NCBI RefSeq assembly: GCF_002355515.1
Contig: NZ_AP014809.1
Location: forward strand, 2,938,501 to 3,002,500
Length of the DNA stretch: 64,000 nt
DNA from: Methylorubrum populi
GTDB taxonomy: Bacteria; Pseudomonadota; Alphaproteobacteria; Rhizobiales; Beijerinckiaceae
Reading direction: 5' to 3'
Part shown: positions 16,858 through 64,000 of the stretch, in pieces
Position numbering within the stretch: the stretch's first letter is position 1
Layout of the letters: every line of letters starts with the position of its first letter
Translations under genes and position numbers: made by a program
Notes under the pieces: generated by a model
The model's input: the letters and a program-made list of their open reading frames with translations, nothing else
Told to the model about the DNA's origin: nothing
Database searches by the model: none

Positions 16858-16945
16858 CGGAGCGGTTTCCGGCCTCTGGCGCGGGGGCGGTGGCCGTGCT
16901 TGGCTGTCGGCCGAAGCATCGTCGAATCGATGGCAGGGGGGATCG

Positions 16946-17350: not shown

Positions 17351-17424
17351 AGGCGCCGCAGATTGGCGCTTCCCTCTGCGACGGTTTAAAACCGCACACG
17401 CCTGTCTCAACCTGTCGAGTCCGC

Positions 17425-18069
17425 ATGTCCGCCACGCCCCGCGCCGCGATCATCCCGGTCACTCCGTTCCAGCAGAACTGCACGCTGATCTGGGACGATG
17501 CCACGAAGGTCGGTGCCGTGGTCGACCCCGGCGGCGATCTGGAGCGGATCGAGGCGGCGATCCGCTCGCAGGGCGTGAAGGTCGAGAAGATCCTGCTCAC
17601 CCACGGTCATATCGACCATGCCGGCGGCGCTGCCGAACTCAAGGAGCGCCTCGGCGTCCCCGTTGAGGGCCCGCACGAGGCGGACAAGTTCCTGCTCGAC
17701 TCCCTGCCGGAAACCGGCGCGAATTACGGCCTCGAGGGCGCTCGCGCGGTCACGCCGGATCGCTGGCTCAACGAGAGCGACACCGTCACCGTAGGGGGGC
17801 TGACCTTCGATATCTGGCACGCCCCCGGCCATTCTCCCGGCAGCGTCGTGTTCATGAGCCGCGACGCCCGCTTCGCTCTGGTCGGAGACGTGGTGTTCCA
17901 GGGCTCGATCGGCCGCACCGATCTGCCCGGTGGCAATCACGAGCAACTGCTCCGGATGATCAAGGAGAAGGTCCTGCCGCTCGGTGACGACGTCGCCTTC
18001 ATTCCCGGACACGGGCCGACCGGGACGCTGGGGCAGGAGCGGATGACGAACCCGTTTTTGCAGGGCTGA
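17425..18069 (+). CDS. metallo-beta-lactamase fold hydrolase (glyoxalase II-like)
   Basis: Protein of 214 residues of the GloB/YcbL group. The metal-binding motif THGHIDHAGG (HxHxDH) is intact, followed by WHAPGHSPGS (third His), LVGDVVFQGSIGRTDLPGGN (bridging Asp) and FIPGHGPTGTLGQER (last His). The pattern GDxLFxxxIGRxDLPGG is typical of the YcbL-type small hydrolases; a thioester such as an acyl-glutathione is the likely kind of substrate. The ATG at 17425 was chosen for family length. Confidence 0.88.
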   Translation: MSATPRAAIIPVTPFQQNCTLIWDDATKVGAVVDPGGDLERIEAAIRSQGVKVEKILLTHGHIDHAGGAAELKERLGVPVEGPHEADKFLLDSLPETGANYGLEGARAVTPDRWLNESDTVTVGGLTFDIWHAPGHSPGSVVFMSRDARFALVGDVVFQGSIGRTDLPGGNHEQLLRMIKEKVLPLGDDVAFIPGHGPTGTLGQERMTNPFLQG

Positions 18070-41598: not shown

Positions 41599-42543
41599 AT
41601 GCCCATCCCCGCAGACAAGCAAGGCGACTGGCACGACGCTCTCGAACTGAAGCTCTACCGGACCCACGGTGAGGAATTCGAGAACTTCTTCGCGACGATG
41701 ATGGAGATGCGTCACGGCGAGGAGTTCGAGCGCGTGGCCGCCTCCGGACGCGCCGGCGACCGCAAGTGCGACGGGTTCCTGCACACCACGGCCGAGGTCT
41801 TCCAGTGCTACGGGGCGGCGAAGGGCGGCGAGAACCGCAAGGCGGTCAACAAGACCCTCACGAAGAAGATGGAGACCGACTACCGGGGGGCGGCGCGCCA
41901 TTGGAAGCGGATGACCCGCTGGCACATGGTCCACAACTTCGTGGACGGTCCCACCGCCGAACCCCTGGCCAAGATCGAGGAGCTGCGGTCGGCGAATCCG
42001 CAGCACCAGCTGCACCTCTTCGGGAAGATGAGCTTCAAGAAGGTGATCTTCTCGCTTGAGGAGCCGGATGTCGTCCGCCTCATCGGGCGTGCCGCGACGC
42101 TGGCCGATTTCGAGAACCTTCAGCCGCCCGAGGTCGTGGCCGTCCTGCATGCCGTCGTGAAGGCCACCTCGGACGACCTGCCGGAGGACGACGAGCCCGC
42201 GCCGGTGCCCCGGGACAAGCTGCGCTACAACGCCATTACCGGGGCCGTGGCCCGCAAGATCGCGATGGGGCAGACGAACGCGGACATCGTCCGGGCGCAC
42301 ATCGTCAACGACCCGAACCCGCTCCTGGGCATCACCCTCGCGAACGAGTTCCGCCGCCGCTACAAGGACCTCGACCTGCAGGACCTCACCTCCAACGAGG
42401 TCATGCTCGGGCTGTACGACGGCATCGTCGGGACCGGGAACCCGACCCAGGAGCGCGACGTCGCCGCGTGGAGCCTCCTGGCCTACCTCTTCACCGCCTG
42501 CACGGTCTTCAGGGACCGGCCGCCCATAGAGGTGGCCGCGTGA
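41599..42543 (+). CDS. ABC-3C system effector-like component
   Basis: Protein of 314 residues, first gene of a three-gene operon. The N-terminal ~130 residues look like a restriction-endonuclease-related fold: LELKLYRTHGEEFENFFATM, then GRAGDRKCDGFLHTTAEVFQ, CYGAAKGG, where D-x-K-x-D-G and the Q residue sit as in a PD-(D/E)xK core. The C-terminal part (KLRYNAITGAVARKIAMGQ, ELRRRYKDLDLQ-like) is the family's shared C-terminal domain. In ABC-3C systems this component is the predicted effector. No strong ribosome site precedes the ATG. Confidence 0.7.
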   Translation: MPIPADKQGDWHDALELKLYRTHGEEFENFFATMMEMRHGEEFERVAASGRAGDRKCDGFLHTTAEVFQCYGAAKGGENRKAVNKTLTKKMETDYRGAARHWKRMTRWHMVHNFVDGPTAEPLAKIEELRSANPQHQLHLFGKMSFKKVIFSLEEPDVVRLIGRAATLADFENLQPPEVVAVLHAVVKATSDDLPEDDEPAPVPRDKLRYNAITGAVARKIAMGQTNADIVRAHIVNDPNPLLGITLANEFRRRYKDLDLQDLTSNEVMLGLYDGIVGTGNPTQERDVAAWSLLAYLFTACTVFRDRPPIEVAA

Positions 42544-42794
42544 TCCTGCCGGCCAAGCACCTGCGCCACGACAGGGCGCTGATCGGCGTCGGGGCCGACG
42601 TCCTGGCCGTGCTCGACGGCCCAAGCAGCGTCTCCGCCGTGTGGGACGCGGTCCGCGCGGCCCGCGCCCGGCGACCGGACGCCTCGCCCCTGTCGTTCGA
42701 CTGGTTCGTCCTGGCGCTCTGCTTCCTGAATGCGGTTTCCGCCATCGAGCTCGTCGAGGGGGGGCTCATCGCCCCGTGCGGTGGGCCGCGATGA
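42540..42794 (+). CDS. ABC-3C system middle component
   Basis: Protein of 84 residues from a GTG overlapping the previous stop by 4 bp. The sequence PAKHLRHDRALIGVGADVLAVL, LSFDWFVLALCFLNAVSAIE and LVEGGLI matches the short middle component of ABC-3C loci, whose conserved core is P.KH...D.alIGvga..L..L with a late FllaLdlLyalgkIe-like helix. It overlaps the ATPase gene by 4 bp, so all three are translationally coupled. Confidence 0.75.
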   Translation: MILPAKHLRHDRALIGVGADVLAVLDGPSSVSAVWDAVRAARARRPDASPLSFDWFVLALCFLNAVSAIELVEGGLIAPCGGPR

Positions 42795-44569
42795 TCCTCG
42801 GCATCTCCAGCGACCTTCCGAGCTTCAAGGCGCTCGCCTTCCACGAGGGCCTCAACGTCCTCGTGGCGGACCGGACGGAGGACTCGACCGAGAGGCAGAC
42901 CCGCAACAGCGCGGGGAAGACCAGCGCCATCGAGGTCATCCATTTCCTGCTGGGCTCGGATGCCGGCAAGGGCTCCATGTTCCAGGTCCCTGAGCTGTCG
43001 GCCTACGCCTTTCACGGCACGTTCCGGCTAGGCGTCCACGAGGTGTCGGTGTCCCGTCGGGGGGACAACGCGAACCAGATCCTGCTCGACCCGGACGACG
43101 CCGCCCTCCTCGGCGTCGACCTGTCCCACGACAAGAAGGCCAACCGGCCGTACCTGCCGGTCAAGAGGTGGCGCGAGCTCCTCGGCCACCATTGGTTCGG
43201 GCTCCCGAACGATCCCAAGGGCACCGAGCTCGGCGCTTCGTTCAGCCCGAGCTTTCGCTCGATGGTCAGCTACTTCGTCCGGCGCAACAAGGTCGGCGGC
43301 TTCCAGTCGCCCGAGCGTCAGGGCGACAAGCAGCAGCCCAGCGACTGGCAGATCAACCTCTCGTACCTCATCGGCCTCGACTGGCGCGTGCCGCGCGACA
43401 TCGAGGAGCTCCGGCTTCGCGAGGCGAGCCTGCGCGAGCTGAAGAAGGCCATCCGCGAGGGCGCTTTCGGCCGGATGTTCGGGTCCGTGGCCGAGATCCG
43501 GCCGGAGCTCAACCGGATCGAGGACAGGATGGCCCGCCTGCGCGAGCAGACGGCGAACTTCGAGGTGCTGGAGGAGTACCGCACCTTCGCCCGCGAGGCC
43601 GCCGACGCGCGCCGTCGCATCAAGGCCATCGGGCACGAGCTCGTGCAGGCGCGGCAGACCATCGAGCACCTGCAGCGCGTCTCCGAGGTCGAGCGCCCGC
43701 CGGAATACGCGGTGCTGGAGCGGATCTACAAGTCGGCGGGCGTCGAGCTGCCCGGCGTCGTCCTGCGGCGGTTCGACGACGTCAAGTCGTTCCAGCTCTC
43801 GGTGGTCGAGAACCGCAAGGCGCACCTGGCCGAGCAGGTCGCGGAGACGCATGCCAGGATCGCGGCGCTCGAAGCCGAGATGGAGGCCCTCGACGGCCGG
43901 CAATCGCAGATCATGCAGGTCCTGGCCGGGAAGGGCGCGCTCGACGACTTCACCAGGATGGGCGAGGAACTCGCCACCCTGGAGATGCAGGCGACCCTGC
44001 TCCGGGAGAAGCTGCGCAACGCGGAGATCCTGGAGGGCAAGAAGAACCAGGCGCAGATCGAGCGCCTGACCCTCCACGAGCGGCTTCAGGCCGACCACCG
44101 GCAGCGCGAGGGCGTCCTCCGAACCGCCATGCGGCGCATCGATGCCGCGATCTCGGGCCTCTACGACGACCGCCGGGGCAACTTGATCGTCGACGCGACG
44201 AGCAAGGGACCGGAGTTCCGCATCACCATCCAGGGTGACGGCAACCGCGGCGGCATCGACCACATGGAGATCTTCTGCTTCGACCTGATGCTCTATCAGG
44301 CTGCGCGGGAGCGCTTCGCCGGCGGCCCCGGCTTCCTCGTCCACGACAGCCACCTCTTCGACGGCGTCGATCCGCGGCAGGTCCGCTCGGCCCTGCTCCT
44401 CGGCAAGTCCGTCATCGGCGACCTCGGGGGGCAGTACATCGTCACCCTGAACTCCGAGACCCTCCCGTTGCTCGGACTGGACGTCGAGATCGCGGATGAC
44501 ATCCTGGACCCGCGCCTGTCCGACGACGAGGGAGGAGGCCTGTTCGGCATCCGCTTCGAGCTCAAGTGA
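42791..44569 (+). CDS. ABC-3C system SMC-like ATPase, DUF2326 type
   Basis: Protein of 592 residues. N-terminal ATPase half: FHEGLNVLVADRTEDSTERQ, TRNSAGKTSAIEVIHFLLGS (Walker A region), then a plain insertion. A long coiled coil fills ~215-470 with two heptad-rich arms. The C-terminal DUF2326 half has FCFDLMLYQAARERFAGGPG, FLVHDSHLFDGVDPRQVRSA (Walker B-like) and YIVTLNSETLP. This is the ATPase of ABC three-component conflict systems, expected to sense nucleoprotein structures and switch on the effector. Stop at 44569. Confidence 0.85.
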   Translation: MILGISSDLPSFKALAFHEGLNVLVADRTEDSTERQTRNSAGKTSAIEVIHFLLGSDAGKGSMFQVPELSAYAFHGTFRLGVHEVSVSRRGDNANQILLDPDDAALLGVDLSHDKKANRPYLPVKRWRELLGHHWFGLPNDPKGTELGASFSPSFRSMVSYFVRRNKVGGFQSPERQGDKQQPSDWQINLSYLIGLDWRVPRDIEELRLREASLRELKKAIREGAFGRMFGSVAEIRPELNRIEDRMARLREQTANFEVLEEYRTFAREAADARRRIKAIGHELVQARQTIEHLQRVSEVERPPEYAVLERIYKSAGVELPGVVLRRFDDVKSFQLSVVENRKAHLAEQVAETHARIAALEAEMEALDGRQSQIMQVLAGKGALDDFTRMGEELATLEMQATLLREKLRNAEILEGKKNQAQIERLTLHERLQADHRQREGVLRTAMRRIDAAISGLYDDRRGNLIVDATSKGPEFRITIQGDGNRGGIDHMEIFCFDLMLYQAARERFAGGPGFLVHDSHLFDGVDPRQVRSALLLGKSVIGDLGGQYIVTLNSETLPLLGLDVEIADDILDPRLSDDEGGGLFGIRFELK

Positions 44570-45521: not shown

Positions 45522-46367
45522 TCAGGATGATCCGGGACACCTCAACCGCCCCGGCGCCGGCCACGGAACATGGGAACGGTCGGGGCGGCCATGCCGGTTC
45601 GCCCAATCCCGCTCGCCCCGCCCGGGCGCCTCACCACCCGCACCCGGGTGCCGCGCGGCGGCCGTGGCTCCCAGGCCGTCGGGCAGCGGGCGCAGGCCTG
45701 CGAGGATGCGTGACAGGCGTGATGCGAGGTCCCCATCGAGGCAGCCCGCGTGCCCCTTGGCCATCCTGCGGAGATACCTCTCCAAGCCGGGCCCGACGGC
45801 CTGCCGATGTTCGAGGAGGATCCGTAACGCGCGGGCCACGACCCCGTGCGGGTTCGGGTTCTCCTCCAGGTTGGTGTCGACGATGGCGTCGCGCAGCCAG
45901 GCGGTGAAACGCGGTCCGTGGTGAACCCGGCGGGAGCCGCACAGGTAAAGCACGGCGTCGCAGTCGAAGAAGGTGGTGTGCACCAGGTCGGTCAGGTGGG
46001 CGGCCTGCACGTGCCCGGACTGGACCGCCCAGGTGGAGGGTAGGGCCCAGACGTCGTACGAGTGGCGGCGCCCGGCGATGCGGTAGCCGCCGAAGCGGTT
46101 CCGAACGGCCGCGCCGTCCCGCATCAGCTCCGCCAAGCGCTCCGGCGGCGCGTGCACGACCAGGTCCACGTCCGATGCGAAGGCCGCAGCCCCGCCCCGG
46201 GCGATATCCCGGGCCATGCCGCCGAAGATCGCAACCTCGCCCACCTGCCCGAGATGGCCGATCAGATCCGCGATCTCGGGGCCCCCGCGAGCCTCGTCCG
46301 CCAGGAACGCCTGCATCCGCCGGCACAGCTCAGCGCCGTCGCGGACGGGGGAGCCAAGGTCAGCCAT
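45522..46367 (-). CDS. pol-beta superfamily nucleotidyltransferase
   Basis: Protein of 281 residues. The NTase core is clear: VGEVAIFGGMARDIARGGAA followed by FASDVDLVVHAPP, i.e. GG...D(V)D(L) metal-binding acids, and a third acid in SYDVWALPSTWA. A helical C-terminal part (GVVARALRILLEHRQAVG) resembles tRNA-nucleotidyltransferase-like substrate domains. The last ~50 residues are low-complexity. Its start overlaps the dNTPase stop by 8 bp, so the two genes form a unit. It may transfer a nucleotide to RNA, a protein or a small molecule. Confidence 0.75.
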   Translation of the reverse strand: MADLGSPVRDGAELCRRMQAFLADEARGGPEIADLIGHLGQVGEVAIFGGMARDIARGGAAAFASDVDLVVHAPPERLAELMRDGAAVRNRFGGYRIAGRRHSYDVWALPSTWAVQSGHVQAAHLTDLVHTTFFDCDAVLYLCGSRRVHHGPRFTAWLRDAIVDTNLEENPNPHGVVARALRILLEHRQAVGPGLERYLRRMAKGHAGCLDGDLASRLSRILAGLRPLPDGLGATAAARHPGAGGEAPGRGERDWANRHGRPDRSHVPWPAPGRLRCPGSS

Positions 46368-47805
46368 GGTGCCGCCTCAAGTCGTCGCGCAGGGACACCG
46401 CGAACGTGTCGGTCATACCCGAGATCATGTCGGTGACGAGCTGCAGTTCGCGGTAGCGCATCGGCATCGCGTTCCCGGGCGACTCGGCCACGCGCCGGTA
46501 GTTCTCCGAGATCCGGGAATACACGTAGGCCGGCAACGCCTCGCGGTCGGAGCGCAGGTCGTCCGGATCCTTGCGCTCGATGATGGCCTTCCAGAACATG
46601 TCCATGAGCTCGTGAACGGTCCGGTGCCCGTCGAGCTCGACTTCGAGGACGCTGCGGTGGCGGTAGACGTGAAACTTGGCGAAGCGCTTCAACGAGGTCC
46701 ACAGCACGACCGCCTCGGAGGCCGCCATCAGCTCCCTGTCGAACGCGCCGGCCATGATGGCATCCCGGTTCGCCACGAACGCCCCAACCGCGGCCCGCAC
46801 CATCTTCCCGATGGCGTCCACGCGGAACATCTGCATCGAGATGTCGTCGAGTTCCCCGGGCGACAATCCCGCGTCCCGGAACTCGGCGTGGCTGCGCTCG
46901 GCCCGCTCGCAGACGTCGAGCGTCAACTCGTCGTCGCACGCGTCGTGACGCAGCCAAGCCATGAGCACGTTGAAGTTGATCAGCTTCTTCTTGGCCGCGT
47001 CCTCGACGTCCACCACCGAGTAGGCGATGTCGTCGCAAGCCTCCATCACGAAGGTCAGGGGATGGCGGACGCCCTCTCGCAAGCCGGTCTCGGCCCAGAC
47101 CTCGGCGGCGATCTCGGCCTCCGACTGGAAGAAGTTGAACTTCTTCCTTGCCTGGGAGGTCTTGTCGACCGCGTCCGACGGCACGGGATACTTCATCAGG
47201 GCCGCCAGGAAGGCATAGGTCATGTTCAGGCCGAAGTCGTCGTTCAGGATCTGCAATCGCGTCAGCAGCCTGAACGCCTGCGCGTTGCCCTCGAATTTCA
47301 GGAAATCACGGCGCATCGGCTCGCTCAGGTCCGGCGCGTCGAAGATGTCGAACGAGGCCGGGTCATCCTGGCGCGGCGCGGAGTGCCGCTTCACCCAGGT
47401 TTGGATCGCGGTCTCGCCCTGATGTCCGAACGGCGGATTGCCGAGGTCGTGGGCGAGCCCGATGGCCTCCAGGAGGGCGGGCACGTTGCGCAGGGGCTCG
47501 ACCTCCCCGGGGAAACCCAGCGCCCCGCCGTGCACGAAGGCGAGGGTGGTTCCCATGCTCCGCGCCATGTTCGCCACCTCGTGGCTGTGGGTTAGCCGGG
47601 TGCGGACGCTGTCGTTGCGTTCCAACGGGAAGACCTGCGTCTTGTCCTGGAGGCGCCGCACCGGGGTCGAGAACAGGATACGGTCGTGGTCACGTTCGTG
47701 CTCGGTCCGGTCCTCGCCCAGCCGCGCCGTGTAGGCTCTGCCCGCGGCCTTTCCCTTGCGCCGCTGCGCGTTGAGGAGGCGTCTCCAGTCGAGTTGATCG
47801 GCCAT
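46360..47805 (-). CDS. dGTPase-family dNTP triphosphohydrolase (HD domain)
   Basis: Hydrolyses deoxynucleoside triphosphates to nucleoside plus triphosphate. It has 481 residues. The family start (RTEHERDHDRILFSTPVRRLQDKTQV) and the HD metal ligands are present: RLTHSHEVANMARS (His), IGLAHDLGNPPFGHQGE (His-Asp) and MEACDDIAYSVVDVEDA (Asp). ATG at 47805. dGTPases are known anti-phage enzymes that drain dNTP pools. The tight coupling to a nucleotidyltransferase in a defence-rich region suggests such a role here rather than housekeeping. Confidence 0.9.
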   Translation of the reverse strand: MADQLDWRRLLNAQRRKGKAAGRAYTARLGEDRTEHERDHDRILFSTPVRRLQDKTQVFPLERNDSVRTRLTHSHEVANMARSMGTTLAFVHGGALGFPGEVEPLRNVPALLEAIGLAHDLGNPPFGHQGETAIQTWVKRHSAPRQDDPASFDIFDAPDLSEPMRRDFLKFEGNAQAFRLLTRLQILNDDFGLNMTYAFLAALMKYPVPSDAVDKTSQARKKFNFFQSEAEIAAEVWAETGLREGVRHPLTFVMEACDDIAYSVVDVEDAAKKKLINFNVLMAWLRHDACDDELTLDVCERAERSHAEFRDAGLSPGELDDISMQMFRVDAIGKMVRAAVGAFVANRDAIMAGAFDRELMAASEAVVLWTSLKRFAKFHVYRHRSVLEVELDGHRTVHELMDMFWKAIIERKDPDDLRSDREALPAYVYSRISENYRRVAESPGNAMPMRYRELQLVTDMISGMTDTFAVSLRDDLRRHHG

Positions 47806-48280
47806 CCTTCGATCCCGTTGCGGCGAGGACGCCCGGTCCATCGCCCACCCACAACACCGTGCGCCCCGGTCTACGTTCCGGCCCTCCGACGCGTCACGCC
47901 AGGATCCCGCGGTTGTCCACGGATTCCGTTCGGGACGGTGCCGCTCGCGCCAGCAAGACACTAGGGCAGGCGCTCCAAGATTGGAACATAGAGAGAACGA
48001 AATCGGTGTTGGCCGGCCCATCCGGAGGTCCCTGCCTCGCCCCGTCCCCACCGAACCCGGAGGGGCGGCTCATGCCGGAGATCTGCCCGACCGGCGTGCC
48101 CTGCTCAAAGCCCTGGGCCGTCCCGTACCGGAAGCGGCGCGCGGTCGCGCGTCGCTTGCATCGCCAGCTGTGGCCCGCCGGCGGTCACTCCCGGCGCGCG
48201 GATACAGCGGCCCCCGCCCCGGCGGCACATGGCGGGCCGGGCGAGGGGGCACGAGCGGGCCGGGCGAGCCGCCGTGGCCC
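47806..48280. other. intergenic stretch
   Basis: About 475 bp with no supported gene; likely contains the promoter of the dNTPase-NTase unit on the minus strand and decayed DNA. Confidence 0.4.
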
Positions 48281-53893: not shown

Positions 53894-54592
53894 GTGAGCT
53901 CCCCTTGCCCGCAGCGCAGCAGCCCCGGACGAAGCTACCGGCCAGGGCTTCCATGGCCGTGGCCATACCTACGGCACCTGGCGGCCGACGGCAAGCATTT
54001 CTGGCCATGGCCGCCCGGGGAACGCCGGTAAGGTTAAGAAAGCCTTTCGCCCGGTGCCTGTCCCCCATCGGACTGCCCCGGCCGCGGCTCGCCGCACTGC
54101 CCGGACGGATCCCGGGGCCGACACTTTCCCGGTCTCCGGGGCAGGGCCGCCGAAGTCCAGGGCCAGGCGCCGGGGGCGGGGCTTCCGCGATGCCCTCCGC
54201 CGTTGGCGACACCTGGTCGAACGGGAGAAACGGCGCCGGTTATTCCGGCATGGCCATGGCACGGGCCACCCATGGCCATGCCGCGCCGATCCTCGTCCGA
54301 CGCCGAGAGATCCTGCGGACCCGCACCGTCGGCGCAACCGCAAGGCTCGCCGGCGGGCCGGAGCCGCGCGGGCCCGGCCGCGGCTCCCGCAAGTCGCGCC
54401 TCGCGATGCCTACAAGCGAGGCCGGGCCAGGGGTGCGCCCCGGCCCGCGCGCGGCGTGCCGGCGACCGGCCCAGGGCCAGTGCAGCGGACGGTCGCGCCG
54501 GGATGCCGACCTCGGAACGCCCCGTAGGCATGCCTTAACGGTTCACCTCGATACGTTCGTCCGAACGGCGGCGCAGCGAGCCGCCCCTCCCG
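53894..54592. other. 0.7-kb stretch without a supported gene
   Basis: GC-rich, with CATGGCC-type words repeated several times (for example around 53950-54010 and 54247-54275), but no array with regular spacing. No convincing frame. Confidence 0.4.
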
Positions 54593-56912
54593 ATGACGGC
54601 CGCTCGGAACGGCCGGGCAGTGGACGCGCGCATGATCCCGCCTGCCGATCACGAGGCCGAACGCCTGACGGCCCTGCGCAGCCTCGGCATCCTCGGCTCG
54701 CCGCCCGACCCCGATCTCGACGCCCTCTGCCGCCTCGCCGCCGAGCTGCTCGGCACGCCGACCGTGGCCGTCTCCCTCGTCGACGCAGAACGGCAGTGGT
54801 TCGTGGCGGGCGTCGGCACCTTCGCGGTCAGCACGCCCCGGGATGCCGCCTTTTGCAACCACGCCATCCGGTCGGACGAGATCCTCGTGGTCGAGGATGC
54901 CGGGCTGGACCGGCGCTTCGCGCGCAACCCGCTCGTCACCGGGGCGCCCGGCATCCGGTTCTACGCCGGCGCGCCCCTCAGCCTCAGGCACGGCGTGCGG
55001 CTCGGCACCCTCTGCCTGATCGACACGCAACCGCGGGCGCTGGACGACGGGGGGAGGCGCCGGCTCCGCGACTTCGCCGCACTCGCCGTCTCGCACCTGC
55101 GCTTGCAGGAGACGGAAGTCGCCTTGCAGGCGCGCGAGAACGAGCTGCGCCGGGCCAACCGCGACCTCGGCATGGCGGAGCGCTGGGCCAAGGTCGGCCA
55201 TTGGCGCATCGCGTTCCCCGACGAGCGCATCACGTGGTCGGACGGGATGTACCCCATCTTCGGCCGTCCCCCCGAGGCCGGGGCGCCGACCAAGCAGGCG
55301 GTGCTCGACACGTTCCATCCCGAGGACCGCGAGGACGTGCGCGTCCGCCTTGAGCGGACCGCCATGGGGGGTGAGGACTACGAGCATCGGCCGCGCTTCA
55401 TCCGCACGGAAGGCGAGTCCGTGTCGCGCTGGCCCACGCGGTCGCCGAGCGCGACGCCACGGGCGAGGTCGTCGGCCTCTTCGGTGTCTGCATGGACGTG
55501 ACCGACCTCGTCCGGGTCGAGGAAGACTTGCGCGCGACCTCGGCGCTGCTCCGCGCGACCTTGGAGCACATGGACCAGGGCCTTCTCATGGTGGACGCGG
55601 CACGGCGCGTCCGCGTGCACAACCGGCGCGCGCTGGAGCTTCTTGACCTGCCGGCGGAGCTGCTGCGCGGCGAGCCGAGTTCCGAGGCGGTGCGGCGCCA
55701 CCAGGTCGCCCGCGGCGAGACGGCGGAGCTGGCTGACGCGCCGCGTCCTCCGGGACCCGCGCAAGGAAGGGAGGCCGACAGCCGGATCCACGAGCGGGAG
55801 CGCCCGGAGGGAACCGTCCTTGAGATCCGCACGGTGCCGCTCGACGGCGGCGGGATGGTGCGCACCTACACGGACATCACCGCGCGCAAGCGGGCCGAGG
55901 CCCAGATGCCCACCACGACCCCCTGACCGGCCTCGCGAACCGGGCCCGCTTCCGCGAGTGCCTCAACCGACGGCTGGCGGAGGTCGGTCACCAGGGCGCG
56001 ACGTGCGCGGTGCTCTGCCTGGACCTCGACCGCTTCAAGGCGGTGAACGACACGCTCGGCCAACCGGCCGGCGACGCGCTGCTGCGGGGCGTCGCCGCCC
56101 GGATGCGCGGCCGCCTGCGGAAGCAGGACATCCTGGCGCGGCTCGGCGGGGACGAGTTCGCCGTCCTGACCGCGCCCGTCGCCCACCCGGCGCAGGCCGC
56201 CGCCGTGGCCGCACGCCTGGTCGGGGCCCTGCACGCGCCGTTCCGCATCGAGGGGCACGAGATCACGGTCGGGACCAGCATCGGGATCGCGCTCGCGCCG
56301 GAGCATGGCCGGGACGGCGACACGCTGTTCAAGAACGCCGATCTCGCGCTCTACGCGGCCAAGGATTCGGGCCGTGACGGGTACCGGTTCTATACCCCCG
56401 CGATGGGCGAGGCCGCCAGCGGCCGGCAGCGGCAGGAGCTCGACCTGCGCGGCGCGCTCGCGCGGGACCAGTTCGAGCTGCACTACCAACCCGTGGTGGA
56501 CACGCGCTCGTTCGCGGTCGCCGGGTTCGAGGCGCTGATCCGCTGGACGCACCCGACCCGAGGCCGCGTCCCCCCGGACGCCTTCATACCGGTGGCCGAG
56601 GAAACCGGGCTTATCGTGCCGGTCGGCGACTGGGTGCTCCGCAAGGCCTGCGAAGACGCGGTCCGGTGGCCGGGGGACGTACGCCTGGCCGTCAACGTCT
56701 CGGCCGTCCAGCTGATGCGGCCCGGCCTGGTCGAGGGCGTCGTCGCGACGTTGGCCGCGGGTCGCCTGGAGTTGGAGATCACCGAGACCGCGCTCCTGCG
56801 GGACAGCCCACCGGTCCTGCCCTGCCTGCACGCGTTGCGAGGCCTCGGCGTGCGCGTGGCGCTCGACGACTTCGGCACGGGGTATTCCTCGCTGAGCTAC
56901 CTGCGGAAGTTC

Positions 56913-57060
56913 GGTCATTCGTCATTTGGGGTTGCTGGCCCCATCTGACCTTCTCCAGCGCCGCCCTCAGGCGGCGAGGAGCGTCCCGGGACGACGCACG
57001 GCCCGACGGCCCACGTTGGCGTCCCCGAGGGGCTGACCCCCCTCGCTCGCGGCCTTGACC
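56913..57060 (-). ncRNA. predicted omega RNA region of the tnpB element
   Basis: In IS200/IS605 elements the guide RNA overlaps the tnpB 3' end and runs to the right end, with the guide read from flanking DNA. Here that region has the CGCCGCC/GGCGGCG hairpin over the stop codon, and the guide would be the minus-strand copy of the EAL gene just below 56913. The 5' limit is a guess from family knowledge. Confidence 0.4.
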
Positions 57061-58199
57061 GCGAGACCTCGGTCGCGGATCACCCCGGCCGAATTCACGT
57101 CCCGATGCTCGTCCAGCCCGCACGGGCAGACGTGCCGGCGCAGGGACAGCGGCTTCGCCGCCACCGCCCCGCACTGCCGGCACTCCTGCGACGTCGCCCT
57201 AGCGTCGACGCAGATCAACTCGCCACCGGCTCTCTCGGCCTTGTAGCGGACGAACTGCACGAGCTTGCCCCATCCCGCATCCAGGATGGACCTGTTCATT
57301 CCCCTCTTCTGAGAGACGTTCGCTCCCGGCTCATCGACCGTGCCGACCGCCGAGCGGGTCATGTTCCGGATGCGCAGGTCCTCCAGCACGACGAGCGGGT
57401 GCTCGCGCGTCAGCCGCGCCGAGACGCGGTGGAGATGCTGGTCGCGAGTGTTGGCTACGGCGCGAAGCTGCCGCGCCAGTCGCGCCTTGACCTTTCTTCG
57501 CCGGTTCGAGCCCTTGCGGCATCGGGCAAGGGCCCGGCGGGAGACGCGGATCTCGCGCTGGCGGCGAGAGGCGGGACGGACGTTCGGGAGACGCTCGCCG
57601 GTGGACAGCGTCAGCAGCGCCTCCACGCCCAGGTCGCCGCCCACCGCCTCGCCGAGCGGCGGCGTGGCCGCCACGACCTCGGTCGTCTCGATGGTGAAGC
57701 CCACGTACCAGTGCCGGCCCTTGCGCGTGAACGTCACGCCCAGGATCTTGGCGTCGGACGGAAGCGCCCGGTCGTGGTTGAGGCGGATCGGCCGGCCGAA
57801 GCCCTTGAGCCGGATGCGGTCACCCTCGTGTCGCAGGCCGGTGGCCTCCAGCAGGCCGAAGGTGCTCCAGCGCGAGGCGGGCTTGAACCGCGGGAAGCCG
57901 GGCTTCAGCCCCCGCTTCACCCGTCCGAAGAATCCGGTGAAGCCGTCCTCGACGCGCTTGAGCGTCCAGCGGCCCATGGTGACCGGATCGGCGCCGTGGC
58001 CCTTCGGGTCGTCGGTGCGGATGACGGTGAGGCTCTTCTGCTGGTCGAAGCGGGTGATGGCCTTGCGCCCGAGCCGCCAGGCGTCGCGGCGCTCCTGCAG
58101 GGCGGCGTTGTAGAGCAGGCGCTGGCGCTCCAGCGCCTCGGCGAGGAGGCGGTGCTGGGCGGCGGTAGGCCTGAGCTTCTGCTGGTAGGTCAGGATCAC
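56967..58199 (-). CDS. TnpB RNA-guided endonuclease (IS200/IS605 OrfB)
   Basis: Protein of 410 residues, GTG start at 58199. It has the N-terminal helix-turn-helix/WED region (MILTYQQKLRPTAAQHRLLA), RuvC-I GGDLGVEALLTLSTGE, RuvC-II VVLEDLRIRNMTRSA, zinc finger SQECRQCGAVA...HVCPCG and RuvC-III DEHRDVNSAGVI. The three acids (Asp, Glu, Asp) are in place, so it should be an active RNA-guided nuclease, ancestral to Cas12. The guide RNA is expected from the gene's 3' end and the right end of the element. Confidence 0.93.
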   Translation of the reverse strand: MILTYQQKLRPTAAQHRLLAEALERQRLLYNAALQERRDAWRLGRKAITRFDQQKSLTVIRTDDPKGHGADPVTMGRWTLKRVEDGFTGFFGRVKRGLKPGFPRFKPASRWSTFGLLEATGLRHEGDRIRLKGFGRPIRLNHDRALPSDAKILGVTFTRKGRHWYVGFTIETTEVVAATPPLGEAVGGDLGVEALLTLSTGERLPNVRPASRRQREIRVSRRALARCRKGSNRRRKVKARLARQLRAVANTRDQHLHRVSARLTREHPLVVLEDLRIRNMTRSAVGTVDEPGANVSQKRGMNRSILDAGWGKLVQFVRYKAERAGGELICVDARATSQECRQCGAVAAKPLSLRRHVCPCGLDEHRDVNSAGVIRDRGLAVKAASEGGQPLGDANVGRRAVRRPGTLLAA

Positions 58200-58803
58200 G
58201 CGACCAGGGTAGAACGAGGTGTGAACAGGTCAACCCCGACCGAAGGTTGATCAATCCCAAACGACGAAGAACCGGAAATTCCCGCTCGACCGGATCAAGA
58301 TCGACCGCTCCTTCGTCGAGGCGGTGGACGAGCCGGGCACGGCGGCCATCGTTGGGGCCATCGCCGGCCTGGGGGCCTCCCTCGGCGCCGCGGTCACGGC
58401 CGAGGGCGTCGAGACGGAGCGGCAGCTCGGGGCGCTGCGGCTGTCCGGCTGCGGCGAGGCGCAGGGCTACCTGTTCGGCAAGCCCGCGCCCGCGGCCGAG
58501 GCCGCCGCGTTCCTGCGCCGGGGGGCCGGAACGAGGGCCGCATGACCCGGGCAGCCCCTTCGGGCCGCGGCGAGCGGCACAGGGCGGGAAGCGGGCCGCC
58601 CTAGCCCGCGCCGCGGGCGATCCGGCGGACGCCGCGCCGCGACCTTGGCGGTAGGCGACACGGCCGCTTAAGATTCCCCGCGGTACGCTCGATTCGGCGA
58701 ACGTCCGTCACGTTCGCCGCCGCCGTCGCAGGGCCGGATACCCGCGCGGCGCATCGCGGTTACCGAGACGGCGGAGCCGCGCCGGAGGCGGTCGGAGGCG
58801 CCC

Positions 58804-60150
58804 ATGGAGGCTTGGTCGACCACGGCGTTCGACGAGACCTCGCAGGCGGACCTGTTCGCGGCCTCGCCGGTCGCGGGCGGCCGCCCGCCGGTGGTGCGGT
58901 GCTGGCTGGCCTTCGACCGGGGCGGCGACGACGTCGGCGTCGCGCTGACCCTGTCCGACCGCCGCCACCTCATAGCGGATGCGTCGACCGGGTACGCCAT
59001 CGTCGGCGACGACGATTTGGTCCTGCTGCCGGATCGGTCGCGCGACGAGCTGATCTGCCTCGGGCCACCCTGGCTGCTGCCCGCGCTGCCCACCGGCTTC
59101 CGGGCCCGCGGCCTCGCCCACTGGTCCAAGCTTCTGCGGGACACGTCGCTGGCGACGTTCCGCCCGTCGCCGGAGGCCAACGCCTGCATCGCGTTCGATA
59201 TCAGGCCCGGTCCGCCGCTCGGTTGGTCGGCGCTGCACGGCGACCTGCGCGACGGGACCTTGGGCCGCCACCCGGATCGACCGGCCCCCGACGGCGTGGC
59301 CTTCCGAGGCGCGCGGGACGCGCGGCTCGTCGACGGCCTGCTTCACTTCGAGCGCGGCCGGCAGCTTGCGGAGGCGGGGAACGGCTCCGAGGCGCGCCTG
59401 GAGCGGGCGAAACGGCATCTCCGGCGCGCCGCGCAGCATTTCGCCGCCGGGCGGCAGCTCGGATGGGGCGAGGTGGCCGAACGATACCTGTCCCTGTTGG
59501 AAAGCCAGCTCTTCCGCATGAGGCAGATGGATCTGCCCGCCCTGCTTCCGCCGCGGCAAGCCGATGCGCTGTGCCTGCCGCGCCTCGGCCTGGGCGTTCA
59601 CCGCCTGATGGCCGTTCCGCTGCCGCCGTTGGCGCTGACGCGGGGGGCCGTTCCCGCGGCGGCCGGGCGGGGCGCGCGCGAGCGCCGCGAGGCGCTCTGC
59701 TTCGTCCCGCTGCATCGGCCGACGCTCCGGCGTCTCCTGCCGGGTACGCGACCCGACGCCCTGCGCGGTCAGGTCGTCTTCGGGCCGCCGGCCACGGGGA
59801 CGGCGACGACCGCCGTGCGGCTCGGCAAGGGGGCGAGCGTCGCCGTCTCGGCCATCCTCGACGGCGAGGTCCACCAGCTCCTGGGCATCGCGAGCCGTGA
59901 GCGCGCTGCCGAGACGGTGACCGTGTTCGCCGATGGCAACGGCGTCGTGGTCTCGCCCGGGGTCAAGCAGGGCAGGGTAGGGCACCCGCTGACCTTCAAG
60001 GCGACCGCTCGGGAAGGCGGGAGGCACGCGCTTCGATTCACGTTCTTGACTCGCGACCGCATCGTTTCGAAGATCCAGAGAACGGTCGAGGTTTACGAGG
60101 ACAACGGTCAGGATGGCTCGTCGGCATGGCGGTCGCCGAAAGCGGGATGA
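58804..60150 (+). CDS. hypothetical protein, first gene of the CHAT/bL21/gasdermin-like locus
   Basis: Protein of 448 residues, ATG at 58804 with CGGAGGC upstream. Three parts: a mostly beta N-terminus (VVRCWLAFDRGGDDVGVALT, VLLPDRSRDELICLGPP), a basic helical middle (RLERAKRHLRRAAQHFAAGR) and a C-terminal beta-sandwich-like part (KGASVAVSAILDGEVHQLLG, PLTFKATAREGGRHALRFTF). No family recognised. The next gene's start lies 38 bp inside it, so the two are co-translated. A carrier, scaffold or sensor for the CHAT protease is possible. Confidence 0.7.
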   Translation: MEAWSTTAFDETSQADLFAASPVAGGRPPVVRCWLAFDRGGDDVGVALTLSDRRHLIADASTGYAIVGDDDLVLLPDRSRDELICLGPPWLLPALPTGFRARGLAHWSKLLRDTSLATFRPSPEANACIAFDIRPGPPLGWSALHGDLRDGTLGRHPDRPAPDGVAFRGARDARLVDGLLHFERGRQLAEAGNGSEARLERAKRHLRRAAQHFAAGRQLGWGEVAERYLSLLESQLFRMRQMDLPALLPPRQADALCLPRLGLGVHRLMAVPLPPLALTRGAVPAAAGRGARERREALCFVPLHRPTLRRLLPGTRPDALRGQVVFGPPATGTATTAVRLGKGASVAVSAILDGEVHQLLGIASRERAAETVTVFADGNGVVVSPGVKQGRVGHPLTFKATAREGGRHALRFTFLTRDRIVSKIQRTVEVYEDNGQDGSSAWRSPKAG

Positions 60151-61366
60151 GATCGCAGCCGGCGCGTTCCGAATGCGCATCGCCACGTCCACGAGCGACC
60201 ACTCGCCCGCGAGGACCGAGGTCAGCGTCTTCGGGGCGGGGCAGCTCGACAGCCTGCGCTTCCACGGAGGCCCGCTGCGCGGTGCGCTGGCCGACGCCGT
60301 CCGCGCGTTCGCCGAGGGCCTGGCCGAGTTCGCCGGGCGCACCTGGGCACCCGAGGCCCAGGACCCGGCGTCGGCAGCGAGGCTGCAATCCTTCCAGAAC
60401 GCCGCCGTGAGCCTCTTCGGCAACCTCTTCCGCCACACGGATCCCGAGAAGGGGGCCAAGGTCCGTGCCGACCTGGACTTCTACCTCGATCACCCGAACC
60501 TCAGGTCGATCACGTTCGACAGCGACCTGGCCGGGATCCCGCTCGACGCCCTGCACTACGGGCGCGCGGGCTCGGGGTTCGACGTCGAGCGCTTCCTCGG
60601 CAGCCGGGCCCCGCTGATCCACGCGCCGAGGCCTGACAAGGAAGAGAGGGAGGCGGACGACGCCGCGCCATCCGTCGGCCTGCTCGGGTCCACGCGCGTC
60701 ACCTCCGTGTCCCGACGCGACGAGGCCAGCATCTTCGCCGTCTTCGAGGACCTCGGCGCCGCCTGCACGACGCGGGAGGACACGCCCCTGCTCGGCCTGG
60801 ACAGGGAGCCGATGGCCGTGGCCGACCTCGCGTCCCTGTTCCGCGCGCTGGGCCAGCTCAGGTCGGTCTGGCACGTCACCAGCCACATGGAAAGCTTCGC
60901 GGGCCAGCACTACTTCGTGCTCGACAACGGGCTGGAGGTCCGGCCCGACTTCTTCAGCCCGCACCAGAAGGAGGCCCGTCCCTTGGTCGGGGAGCCCCTC
61001 GTGTTCCTGAACATCTGCGCATCGGCGGCCCCCGGGGTCATCGCCGACAGCAACTTCCCGGACAACCTGCACCTCATGCAGGCGGGCGGCGTGATCGCGA
61101 CCCACTGCCTCGTCAACGAACGCTTCGCCACCGAATTCGCGCGCCGGTTCTACCGGCACGCATTCTCCCGCGCGCCCGGGATGCGCGGCGAGCGCCTGAC
61201 GGTCGCGGAGAGCCTGCATCAAGCGCGACGCGACAGCCTCCACCGGGACGGGTCCGTCGCCAGCCTCTGCTATTCCTTCCATGCCCTGGACGATTTCGCC
61301 CTGCCCGGGGCCATCGAGGGCGAGGTCGCCACGGCGCGCGGGGAAGCTCTGCATGGAGCGGCATAA
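60113..61366 (+). CDS. CHAT-domain (caspase-like) protease
   Basis: Protein of 417 residues. The C-terminal half is a caspase/separase-like CHAT domain: PLDALHYG, RSVWHVTSHMESFAGQ with catalytic His258, then PLVFLNICASAAPG with nucleophile Cys302, i.e. a His-Cys spacing of ~44, as in characterised CHAT proteases, and MQAGGVIATHCLVNE after it. The N-terminal half is a beta/alpha domain (VSVFGAGQLDSLRFHGGPLR, VRADLDFYLDHPN) typical of the region before CHAT. The ATG at 60113 has GAGG 12 nt upstream; an ATG at 60173 is an alternative. It overlaps the bL21-fusion gene by 14 bp. Confidence 0.82.
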   Translation: MARRHGGRRKRDEIAAGAFRMRIATSTSDHSPARTEVSVFGAGQLDSLRFHGGPLRGALADAVRAFAEGLAEFAGRTWAPEAQDPASAARLQSFQNAAVSLFGNLFRHTDPEKGAKVRADLDFYLDHPNLRSITFDSDLAGIPLDALHYGRAGSGFDVERFLGSRAPLIHAPRPDKEEREADDAAPSVGLLGSTRVTSVSRRDEASIFAVFEDLGAACTTREDTPLLGLDREPMAVADLASLFRALGQLRSVWHVTSHMESFAGQHYFVLDNGLEVRPDFFSPHQKEARPLVGEPLVFLNICASAAPGVIADSNFPDNLHLMQAGGVIATHCLVNERFATEFARRFYRHAFSRAPGMRGERLTVAESLHQARRDSLHRDGSVASLCYSFHALDDFALPGAIEGEVATARGEALHGAA

Positions 61367-62570
61367 GAGGGGCGGCACCGAGACGGCGGCAGCCGAGCCC
61401 GCGGTGTGGGCCGTCCTGCGGACCGGCGGGAAGCAGTACGTCGTCCGCACCGGCGACCGGCTGAACGTCGCCCGCTCGGACTACCTGGCGGCCACGGTCC
61501 GCGACGCGGACGGACGCCGCTTCCACGCGTTCGACGACATCCTCATGCTCGGCTCGGGCGAGGGCACCGTCGTCGGCAGCCCGAACGTGCCGAACGCGCG
61601 GGTCATCGCGGAACTGCTGCCCGAGAAGCGGGGACCGAAGACAGTCTCGTTCAAGAAGCGGCGGCGCCAGAACTCCCGGCGGATGCGGGGCCACCGCCAG
61701 GTCCTGCAGCCCGTGCTGATCGTCTCGGTGGAGCCAGGCGACGGGCCCTTCGGCGAGATGGCTTGGCGGAGCGTCGACCGGTCCGGACCGGCGGAGCGTG
61801 GCAGGTTGGCGGGTGCCGCCGTTCCCGACCTCCTCGCGAGCCTCCGGTGGGGTGGGCCCGGGCAGGCCGTCGAGACGCTGCGGGAGGTGGCGACAAGGTC
61901 CTGGTCCGACGTGGCGGAACGGGAGCGCCGGGAAGTGGAGAGGTCCCTCGAACCGCTCCTGACCGCACCGGACGCACGTCTGCGCGCCGCCTCGGCGCTC
62001 GCCCTGGCGACCGTCACGGGCGTCCCGGCGGGCGGGGCCACGCCGGATGCCGTGGCCGATGCCTTGACCCGGTATTTCGCGCGCACCGGACGTCGCCACT
62101 TCGCCGAGGTGGCCCTTCGGGCCGACGCCGCACGCGGCACCGGCCCGGACGGCCTCGCGCATTACCGAGCGACGGTTTCCCTGAGGGACCGGCTCGACCT
62201 GCCGTCCGGCAACGCGACGGTGCGGCTCGGGCAGGGCATCCCGGTCGCGGCGCATGTCGAGGTCAACGTCTCCGGTCCAGGGATCGACCCCGGGTCGCGG
62301 CGCGTGATCGCCCGCGGCGAGAAGCCGGCGGGAACGGTGCGCGAGGCGGTCGTCTGTTTCGGGAACGACCACAGCGTCGGGGACAGCGCGATCCTCGACG
62401 TCGTGGTGGACGGTCGGCGGATCGAGCGCCGCTTCCTTTCTCTGTCGCGGCTCGCCATCACGCGCGACCCGCCCGCCCTGCCCGGGTCCGCGAGCTGGCC
62501 GGCGGCCTACGCCGGCGGCCTGATCCCGATGCCCAACCCTCCGGCCCAGGGGTCGGCCAGCAGCCTGTAA
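61353..62570 (+). CDS. ribosomal protein bL21-like domain fused to unknown C-terminal domains
   Basis: Protein of 405 residues, ATG at 61353 with GGGGAAG upstream. Residues ~18-128 read like bL21: VWAVLRTGGKQYVVRTGDRL, ILMLGSGEGTVVGSPNVPNA, RVIAELLPEKRGPKTVSFKK and RRRQNSRRMRGHRQVLQPVL, the basic signature (K/R-rich, GHRQ) by which bL21 binds 23S rRNA. The rest is a helical region (~150-240) and a beta-sandwich-like C-terminus (RLGQGIPVAAHVEVNVSGPG). Ribosomal bL21 is ~100 residues and stands alone; this is a paralogue, not the housekeeping rplU. Confidence 0.8.
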   Translation: MERHKRGGTETAAAEPAVWAVLRTGGKQYVVRTGDRLNVARSDYLAATVRDADGRRFHAFDDILMLGSGEGTVVGSPNVPNARVIAELLPEKRGPKTVSFKKRRRQNSRRMRGHRQVLQPVLIVSVEPGDGPFGEMAWRSVDRSGPAERGRLAGAAVPDLLASLRWGGPGQAVETLREVATRSWSDVAERERREVERSLEPLLTAPDARLRAASALALATVTGVPAGGATPDAVADALTRYFARTGRRHFAEVALRADAARGTGPDGLAHYRATVSLRDRLDLPSGNATVRLGQGIPVAAHVEVNVSGPGIDPGSRRVIARGEKPAGTVREAVVCFGNDHSVGDSAILDVVVDGRRIERRFLSLSRLAITRDPPALPGSASWPAAYAGGLIPMPNPPAQGSASSL

Positions 62571-63367
62571 TCCCGCGCATCCGCCTCGGCGGTGCCGCCG
62601 TCCCGCGGCCCGCCGCCGAGGACGTCGATCCTGGTATGGGCGAGGCGCAGCCGCAACCCGGGTCCGTCGTCGCGGCGCACGAGCTCCATCAGGCGGACGC
62701 CGAAGGCCAGGGCCGTGTCCCCGGCCACCTTGACCAGCCCGCCCGCCTCCTTGCGCACCTTGTGGCCCAGGCCGAGCTTGGCCGCCTCCGCCACCACCGC
62801 CTCGGCGTCGATCACGCGGCCCTTGTCGTCCGTCCAGGACATCTCGATCTCCGGGCAGCGGTACACGTCCACGACGGCGAAGATCCGCACGGCCTCGGCG
62901 CCTTCGACGAAGGAAAGGTCCGGGGCGTTCGGCCCCAGCGCCCGGCCGAGCGCGGCGAAGTCGATGCCGTCGCGCGTGGCCTTGGAGAACCGCAGGAACA
63001 ACTTGCGCCCGCCGCTCGCCTCCGCCTTGGCCGAGATGCTCGGCAGGGTCGCGCCGGGCCAGAACCGCTCCAGGAAGGACGCGAAGATACCCCCCTCGAC
63101 CCGGCCCTCCTGGCTGTCCGAGAACGTGGCGTCGACGTCCGCGAGGCGCGCGTCGCGCGCCACCTCCGGAAGAACCAGGCCAGGCACGAGGTTGTGGAGC
63201 GCGACGGGCCCGAACGCGTCCGGCACCGCACCGCTCCCCGCCAGCAGGAGCGCTTGGCCGGGCTGCAGGTCCTCCCGTGGCACCTTGAGCAGGTTGATCC
63301 GGTGCTTGTCGAACAGCAGCCGCAGCAGCGCATCCTGGATGTCGGGTCGGAAGACCGGATCGGTCAT
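62507..63367 (-). CDS. bacterial gasdermin-like pore-forming protein (probable)
   Basis: Protein of 286 residues, ATG at 63367. The beta-alpha pattern follows bacterial gasdermins as I know them: HRINLLKVPREDLQPGQALL, LVPGLVLPEVARDARLADVD, then EGGIFASFLERFWPG and a strand/helix LFLRFSKATRDGIDFAALGR, AVRIFAVVDVYRCPEIEMSW, and LAFGVRLMEL near the end. A C-terminal tail of ~45 residues would be the autoinhibitory peptide cut by a protease. There is no Cys near the N-terminus (lipidated in some members). The CHAT protease next door matches the known protease-gasdermin pairing. The assignment rests on pattern, not a search. Confidence 0.6.
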   Translation of the reverse strand: MTDPVFRPDIQDALLRLLFDKHRINLLKVPREDLQPGQALLLAGSGAVPDAFGPVALHNLVPGLVLPEVARDARLADVDATFSDSQEGRVEGGIFASFLERFWPGATLPSISAKAEASGGRKLFLRFSKATRDGIDFAALGRALGPNAPDLSFVEGAEAVRIFAVVDVYRCPEIEMSWTDDKGRVIDAEAVVAEAAKLGLGHKVRKEAGGLVKVAGDTALAFGVRLMELVRRDDGPGLRLRLAHTRIDVLGGGPRDGGTAEADARDYRLLADPWAGGLGIGIRPPA

Positions 63368-63749
63368 GGCTGGGTCCTGTCTCGTCTTGGTCGACCGGCC
63401 GGACCCTATCACGCGGCGCCGACCCGGACAGCGCCGCGCACGCCCCGGGCCGAATCCGGGACGCGCGACATAGCGCCCCCGCACGGGTCCGGTACCTGCG
63501 TCCCGCCCGCTCGGGCGCCGGAGCCACGCGCTCGCCCGCCCCGCGAGCCGCCCGTCCCGCCCGCGCGGACAAGGAGACCCATGGCGGACGCCCGCATCCG
63601 AGGCGTCCGCGGCGGCAGCCGACGGGATCGACCCTGCGCAAGCGTCCATCGACGCACCGGGACCTGCAGCCGGGGCCCCGCGTCGCGCTCCGGTGCGGAT
63701 CGCCCCTCAACCCCGTGGCGCTCGATGCGCCGGCCCGGACCGGCCGCCG
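63368..63749. other. intergenic stretch upstream of the gasdermin-like gene
   Basis: About 380 bp of GC-rich DNA; should hold the promoter of the gasdermin-like gene. No frame is supported. Confidence 0.4.
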
Positions 63750-63971
63750 CTACGGCCCCGGGGTACCGCGTGGGCCTTGATCGCCCATGTAACGGCCCGT
63801 CGAGGCCGTGGAGGTCAGGATCTGCCTGCCGACGACGCCGCACGCCCCCGCGACCGCGATGGCCACCAGGATGCGCAGGAACGTTCTCCGCGCGGCCGCC
63901 CGAACCCCTGGCCGGACGCGGCGCCTTCGTCCCGCGTTCCTGGATGTCCAGGCATGGCGTTCCGCGCGCAT
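63750..63971 (-). CDS. small basic protein with one transmembrane segment
   Basis: Protein of 73 residues, ATG at 63971 with GGAGAG upstream. A strongly basic N-terminus (RNAGRRRRVRPGVRAAARRT) is followed by one hydrophobic helix (FLRILVAIAVAGACGVVGR) and a Gly/Pro/Thr-rich tail. It looks like a single-pass inner-membrane protein with the N-terminus in the cytosol. No family recognised. Confidence 0.5.
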   Translation of the reverse strand: MRAERHAWTSRNAGRRRRVRPGVRAAARRTFLRILVAIAVAGACGVVGRQILTSTASTGRYMGDQGPRGTPGP

Positions 63972-64000
63972 GCGAACTCTCCGGTCTCGCGGATACACGC

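Follow-up and report, generated by a model that had tools for sequence, protein, structure and literature searches.

A gasdermin homologue, a CHAT-type protease and a bL21-domain fusion at one Methylorubrum populi locus: a possible ribosome-linked suicide module

The window analysed here, a stretch of 64,000 nucleotides from Methylorubrum populi (C1 2938501-3002500, on a 5.7-Mb contig), carries towards its end a locus of four genes, A to D. Sequence comparison identifies a gasdermin homologue (D), a protein with a ribosomal bL21 domain (C) and, transitively, a CHAT-type cysteine protease (B), places the three genes next to one another and reveals a conserved loop in the bL21 domain. The reading that we favour, while holding it to fall just short of an even chance, is a gasdermin-CHAT suicide module in which A and C would form the sensing and control part, with C docking on 23S ribosomal RNA (rRNA) or the 50S subunit. 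Of this reading, the half that concerns pore and protease is likely, because bacterial gasdermin-protease pairs and fungal pairs provide precedents; the ribosome-sensing half we infer.

The four genes and their products

All four open reading frames (ORFs) that a sequence-only reading of this DNA had listed were confirmed at the same coordinates.

58804..60150, + strand: gene A, 448 residues, of no recognised family and with no profile match
60113 or 60173..61366, + strand: gene B, CHAT-type cysteine protease, 417 or 397 residues
61353..62570, + strand: gene C, bL21-domain fusion, 405 residues from the family start or 429 residues from the ORF start at 61281
62507..63367, - strand: gene D, bacterial gasdermin homologue, 286 residues, with PADLOC, NCBIfam and PDB matches

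Gene D is a homologue of the bacterial gasdermins (bGSDMs). The PADLOC bGSDM model (PDLC02986) matched it with an E of 2.2e-22 over residues 11-246, the pore-forming domain, and the NCBIfam model prok_gasdermin (NF051890) with an E of 4.3e-15 over positions 3-203 of 203. Solved gasdermins were matched in the PDB as well (7n50, E 1e-3; 8sl0, E 0.01). A protease gene lies nearby: the CHAT-type gene is 1.1 kb off, with gene C in between. Two features of the C-terminus are of interest.

62510..62629, - strand: gasdermin C-terminal tail, residues 247-286, beyond the end of the PADLOC match (246); candidate autoinhibitory tail
62573..62575, - strand: Arg265, candidate cleavage site, 21 residues from the C-terminus; alternatives R268, L269 and L270

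The role of the tail, about 40 residues long, as a candidate autoinhibitory segment is assigned from the bGSDM literature, in which the described cleavage sites follow a Leu or Arg and lie about 20 residues before the C-terminus (PMC9612521). The choice of R265 is a guess from this spacing and is offered as a prediction only.

Gene B is a divergent CHAT protease, supported transitively through a distant relative. The protein search returned five clusters at E <= 0.001, the window's own among them. The most distant relative, P0010, was aligned by BLASTP at an E of 1.9e-5 in a database of 5.8 billion sequences; it scores 39.9 bits against the Pfam CHAT model PF12770, above the cut-off, and another relative, P0009, scores 19.5 bits. 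Two positions that we take to be catalytic, as in other CHAT proteases, are invariant in all five aligned sequences (the window protein included).

60884..60886, + strand: predicted catalytic His, H258 in the 417-residue form and H238 in the 397-residue form; invariant in 5/5 aligned sequences
61016..61018, + strand: predicted catalytic Cys, C302 in the 417-residue form and C282 in the 397-residue form; invariant in 5/5 aligned sequences

A Pfam CHAT search of the organism's own genome gave no match at E <= 0.001, in agreement with gene B being divergent. Searches of solved structures, by profile or by sequence, returned nothing for gene B or for P0010.

Gene C carries a true bL21 domain, which was matched by PF00829 at an E of 1.2e-19 (70.8 bits, cut-off 27) and also by NCBIfam models and PDB entries. 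Four parts were distinguished in the protein.

61404..61736, + strand: bL21 domain, residues 18-128; Pfam, NCBIfam and PDB matches
61653..61700, + strand: basic loop of bL21, residues 101-116; motif present in the window, P0002, P0003 and the host's own bL21
61818..62090, + strand: helical, possibly HEAT-like region, residues 156-246; ten-residue blocks of the AlphaFold2 (AF2) model at a predicted local distance difference test (pLDDT) score of 54-84
62091..62462, + strand: beta-rich region, residues 247-370; AF2 strands at pLDDT < 50

The sequence-only reading had described a gasdermin-like gene at 62507-63367, a CHAT protease with His258/Cys302 and a bL21-like fusion, and had placed them in one locus. 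Profile matches and ORF coordinates bear out both the assignments and the adjacency; for the protease the support comes from the P0010 link and the invariant dyad.

Genes A, B and C are in operon-like order on the + strand and gene D runs toward gene C. The convergence on the gasdermin gene that had been described holds, C and D being convergent with an overlap of 64 nucleotides. The statement that the three plus-strand genes overlap end to start held in one part and depends on a start codon in the other. The relatives of gene C (P0001-P0003) are 405-409 residues long in 3/3 cases and so start at the equivalent of 61353, which gives a B/C overlap of 14 nucleotides. Gene B starts at the equivalent of 60173 (397 residues) in P0006 and P0007 and later in P0008; the N-terminal extension of P0009 is similar to that of the window's gene B, which speaks in favour of a possible start at 60113. 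Genes A and B are therefore either overlapped by 38 nucleotides or separated by a gap of 22 nucleotides. The codon-position GC of the four ORFs is gene-like for this genome (0.89-0.91 at third and 0.51-0.59 at second positions; for gene D the values were taken on a longer frame of 380 residues).

The bL21 domain of gene C

The host genome has a separate native bL21 (G000:C1:5144335-5144637). The bL21 domain of gene C is about 40% identical to it and carries an 8-residue insertion. The identity is unevenly spread: in a 17-column loop segment, which was picked after the alignment had been seen, 16/17 positions are identical, as are 6/6 in the motif TGGKQY, against 22/87 in the rest (Fisher p 1.1e-7). 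The loop and the remainder were then compared with eight native bL21s, namely the host's own and seven of the 12 matches from a plasmid collection. The fusion loop is identical at 15/17 positions to the bL21s of Shinella, Rhizobium and Sinorhizobium and at 8-9/17 to the non-alphaproteobacterial ones (two from Fusobacterium, one from Neisseria and one from Paenibacillus). Outside the loop and TGGKQY, the identity of the fusion is 25-30% to all eight natives and 27-30% to the four non-alphaproteobacterial ones. What stands out in these alignments is that the fusion appears to have kept the loop while the rest of the domain dropped to about a quarter identity. Since the loop is near-identical to that of the host's bL21 though the rest has diverged, it follows the host clade. 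The basic loop of bL21 presumably contacts 23S rRNA, and its match to the host clade would fit binding of the host's own 23S rRNA. This pattern is as expected from binding to host 23S rRNA, and equally as expected from a bait for a factor that reads bL21.

The loop comparison has a second side. The host bL21 itself is identical to the three alphaproteobacterial natives at 15/17 loop positions and at 48-51% elsewhere, and to the other natives at 8-10/17 loop positions and at 32-44% elsewhere. By these alignments, a conserved loop is in part something that bL21s share in general, and the form of the loop may simply reflect alphaproteobacterial ancestry. Both points, together with the choice of the segment after alignment, weigh against a special role for the loop in ribosome sensing.

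Of the 23 columns invariant in the eight natives, 18 are kept in all three fusions compared. The other five are changed in at least one fusion (one is the start Met of the natives and one is altered only in P0003), and these changes along with the 8-residue insertion may argue against an ordinary ribosomal role. Gene C thus shares with ribosomal protein bL21 (PF00829) a domain above cut-off, the conserved loop and the TGGKQY motif, and differs from it by about 275 additional C-terminal residues, the insertion and a neighbourhood of death genes. The bL21 of the chloroplast ribosome, which has the longest extension (97 residues), is located at the large-subunit surface (PMC5071890); a C-terminal fusion to bL21 is therefore sterically plausible. 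Among the NCBIfam models for bL21 are some with 216-223 positions.

The bL21 domain is the best-conserved part of gene C in the comparison with P0003 (96/111 identical; linker 15/27, helical region 53/91, beta-rich region 90/124, tail 20/34). With P0002 the corresponding values are 102/111, 18/27, 73/91, 100/124 and 22/35. The regions beyond bL21 were matched poorly. The AF2 model of gene C, built on a 4-sequence alignment, has a mean pLDDT of 42.4 and is reasonable only at about residues 151-246. HEAT_2 gave an E of just 0.069 on gene C and Foldseek searches with the model gave weak HEAT/armadillo-type matches, none at E <= 0.001, so that the term HEAT-like is a lead only. The beta-rich region had no profile match, and nothing beyond bL21 was matched among solved structures.

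The protein of gene A had no match in four profile libraries (Pfam, PADLOC, NCBIfam and PHROG) and formed two protein clusters among the candidates scored, the window's own included. Its AF2 model, from a 3-sequence alignment, has a mean pLDDT of 36.9 and hints at a beta-rich N-terminus, a helical middle (about residues 171-241) and a beta-rich C-terminus (about 320-433). Comparison with solved structures gave six weak and unconvincing matches. Homology between A and C was considered and is unsupported, the profile comparison having given a probability of 0.4%.

Recurrence and genomic neighbourhood

The gene cluster is very rare. In the counts that follow, the window's own genome is always included; the samples overlap, and all but the set of 111 were taken out of larger groups. 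Gene B was found in 4 of 99 genus genomes and 2 of 298 family genomes, gene A (query P0005) in 4/111 genus genomes, the same four as for gene B, and gene D in 2/397 family genomes. The bGSDM model matched in four of 397 order genomes (three weak matches and one strong) and in one of 394 phylum genomes, the strong match being the window's own; gene C without its bL21 part was found in 1/297 order genomes, again the window's own. The protein searches scored about 8,000 candidates, those sharing most words, and the rarity is for this reason possibly overstated.

The full four-gene set is present in three of the four genomes with the locus (the window, L005 and L006); in the fourth, L007, a contig end falls inside gene C and leaves it cut, and gene D was not seen. 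The loci L005-L007 are three of 63 pattern matches in a scan of named genomes. The complete copies L005 and L006 are 3-13 bases per gene away from the window, the locus being about 99% identical, which points to one recent lineage. Flanks included, the region is about 97-99% identical in Methylorubrum rhodesianum, Methylobacterium symbioticum and Methylorubrum zatmanii. More diverged relatives were found for two of the genes. Gene C forms three clusters including the window's own, of which P0003 is 65-69% identical, and P0005, a diverged gene A, is 71-74% identical. P0003 and P0005 share a contig of 5,583,865 bases, the only case known in which A and C recur together in diverged form. The sequence-only reading had raised the question whether the gene set recurs: the four genes do occur together in the near-identical group and the A/C pair recurs in diverged form, while co-occurrence of all four is confined, in what was found, to that group.

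In a plasmid collection of 72,556 records, no match was found to A, B or D, and the 12 records matched by gene C each covered <=30% of the query, all inside the bL21 part. Four scans of IMG/VR viral contigs (A3, P0009, D and the C-terminal part of C) gave none that was confirmed. In these collections, then, the system did not turn up as cargo of phages or plasmids.

The three weak bGSDM matches in other genomes of the order (G528, G699 and G715; E 1.4e-4 to 8.7e-4) lie at L023 8351-9142, L024 8145-8936 and L025 8179-8910 (-). These proteins start like signal-peptide or lipoprotein precursors and possibly form a separate gasdermin-like group. They were dropped as comparison loci: their neighbours, judged by eye, look like ordinary metabolic genes among which no protease was recognised.

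In the window, 10 flanking proteins were scanned with PADLOC. The following lie upstream of the locus.

41599-44569, + strand: candidate defence system of ABC-3C type with two genes, matched in PADLOC by PDC-M68A (E 3.4e-13) and PDC-M68B (E 3.9e-133); Pfam CTD10 and DUF2326
46360-48051, - strand: HD-domain protein, PADLOC dGTPase (E 9e-75), which may be an ordinary housekeeping dGTPase
56967-58199, - strand: TnpB/IS605 OrfB gene, with a PADLOC match to Cas12 models

The TnpB gene sits between two pieces of a GGDEF/EAL gene, at 56010-56948 and about 58324-58545 (+ strand). The EAL match ends at position 167 of 236; the second piece was picked out by eye. About 2.4 kb of the window (about 54547-56911), comprising most of the GAF/PAS-GGDEF-EAL region, is absent from the equivalent position of L005, L006 and L007; elsewhere these three loci are collinear with the window at about 97-98%. 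Just past the point that corresponds to the window end, L014 carries at about 13392-18000 a metal, probably copper, resistance cluster by eye, with P-type ATPase-like, MerR-like and Tat-signal proteins. One protein of this cluster (455 residues), the only member scanned with PADLOC and Pfam, had no match.

Known systems, proposed mechanism and alternatives

A CHAT protease beside a gasdermin is already known in print. Caspase-like proteases, CHAT included, are drawn beside bGSDMs in a figure legend of PMC9612521, and about 17% of fungal HET-Q2-like proteins carry CHAT (PMC10989679). These bacterial and fungal cases substantiate the description of protease plus gasdermin as a known self-killing design. 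The remark that gene A and the bL21 fusion are not parts familiar from described gasdermin loci also agrees with the literature searched, which comprised openly licensed PMC papers: neither protein A nor a bL21-domain protein at a gasdermin locus was found there, and the papers listed for ribosomal protein L21 with gasdermin, or for gasdermin with Methylobacterium, were unrelated as judged by title or abstract.

The locus shares with the bacterial gasdermin-protease operons (Runella and others; PMC9612521) a gasdermin near a caspase-like or CHAT protease, a tail that could be cut and an expected death by pores. It differs from them in that gene D lacks an N-terminal cysteine and is convergent, and in the extra gene A and bL21 fusion. 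The CARD-NLR gasdermin systems (Lysobacter enzymogenes; PMC13236601) likewise combine a gasdermin with a dedicated protease and sensor proteins, whereas here a CHAT protease and a bL21 domain stand in place of the trypsin-like protease and NLR/ATPase; neither an NLR-like ATPase nor a trypsin-like protease was matched among the four proteins, or by Pfam in the 10 flanking proteins scanned. In the fungal HET-Q1/HET-Q2 systems a gasdermin is also cut by a clustered protease, in some cases CHAT, but these serve fungal allorecognition, and the cited excerpts of PMC10989679 mention no ribosomal-protein domain. Craspase (TPR-CHAT of type III-E CRISPR) has in common with the locus a CHAT protease with an RNA-binding partner; at this locus neither Cas7-11/gRAMP nor TPR gave a match, and the RNA-binding part, if any, would be the ribosomal-protein domain.

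In the mechanism that we favour, the locus would be a self-killing module resembling abortive infection. Gene D would encode a gasdermin that inhibits itself until its C-terminal tail is cut and then makes pores in the membrane, and gene B the CHAT cysteine protease that makes this cut. Genes A and C would supply sensing and control: the bL21 domain of C would dock on 23S rRNA (within a 50S subunit, either mature or still in assembly, or as exposed rRNA), and the helical and beta-rich regions of C, together with protein A, would hold the protease. If the ribosome or its rRNA were disturbed, as in phage takeover, the protease would become active, leading to gasdermin cleavage and cell death. 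The cutting of D by B, the A-B-C complex, the rRNA docking, the trigger and the anti-phage role are all steps that we infer. One known phage protein binds the 50S subunit at an early stage of infection, at 5S rRNA and not at bL21 (PMC10914614), and the ribosome is on this account a plausible thing to guard. That C is a captured ribosomal protein serving as sensor, which would dock at the bL21 site and set off the CHAT protease in response to disturbance of the large subunit or its rRNA, is possible if doubtful.

Several observations weigh against the suicide-module reading. Gene D is convergent and stands outside the A-B-C operon; in 58200-64000 no promoter-like site was found, and the terminator-like sites (3, against a shuffle mean of 1.8) are in no clear excess. 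The four genomes with the locus are about 99% identical, which makes the co-occurrence nearly a single observation, and neither B nor D was observed next to the diverged A/C pair. Gene B itself scores 17.2 bits (E 0.0036) against PF12770, under the Pfam cut-off of 24, and the local alignment of P0010 spans just 23% of the gene B query. Gene D reaches 56 bits in NF051890, below the curated cut-off of 100, and its sole cysteine is C171, with none near the N-terminus; a majority of bGSDMs, not all, are palmitoylated on an N-terminal cysteine (PMC9612521). The AF2 models of A and C are low in confidence. Apart from TnpB, the candidate defence genes matched (PDC-M68A/B and dGTPase) are about 11-17 kb away and not clearly linked.

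The direction in which C acts, as activator or as safety catch, cannot be read from the sequence. In the latter case, C docked on intact ribosomes or rRNA would hold the CHAT protease off; should ribosomes or C be lost, as on translation arrest, the protease would be freed in an antitoxin-like manner. The 14-nucleotide overlap of B and C suggests coupled synthesis, as would suit such a pair, and a host protein restraining the protease is one explanation given for autoactive bGSDM-protease pairs (PMC9612521). We regard this arrangement as unlikely, in that the sequence favours an inhibitor no more than an activator and no antitoxin-like family is among the Pfam, PADLOC or NCBIfam matches.

Improbable, in our estimate, is a reading of A-B-C and the gasdermin as two separate systems with a shared end, protease B having another substrate and D being a passenger or under another protease. 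The convergent orientation of D would agree with this, as would a link between D and A-B-C that comes from a single near-identical group, in which the flanks are also shared at about 97-99%, so that the whole region was inherited or transferred together. Strong gasdermin matches are, on the other hand, very rare (1/397 order and 1/394 phylum genomes), which makes adjacency to a CHAT gene by chance unlikely, and bacterial gasdermins often adjoin proteases (PMC9612521).

A third alternative requires no docking: the bL21 domain would be a bait, and a phage factor or toxin that attacks bL21 or its rRNA site would hit C and fire the protease. A loop kept in the form of the host bL21 while the rest diverged is what a bait would need, and 50S-binding phage proteins are known (PMC10914614). 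A literature search on ribosomal-protein decoys in phage defence yielded no phage protein that targets bL21, the protein of PMC10914614 binds at 5S rRNA, and rRNA binding explains the preservation of the loop equally well; such a decoy is improbable. Finally, a role of the fusion as a specialised ribosomal component or a regulator of translation, with no tie to cell death and in a cluster collected by chance, would accord with its bL21 domain above the Pfam cut-off and with the separate native bL21 in the genome, and is very improbable for a gene that overlaps a protease gene, adjoins a gasdermin and has its part beyond bL21 in just 1/297 order genomes, the window's own.

To return to the suicide module, the cue that activates the Lysobacter gasdermin system in phage infection was unknown as of 2022, and diverse activation mechanisms were expected (PMC9612521). 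A gasdermin-protease locus that bears a bL21 domain points to a definite and testable cue, the ribosome or its rRNA, and the bL21 loop offers a precise place to test ribosome sensing. If the reading is true, surveillance of the bacterial ribosome would be tied to a pyroptosis-like death, and the integrity of the ribosome would be a guarded signal.

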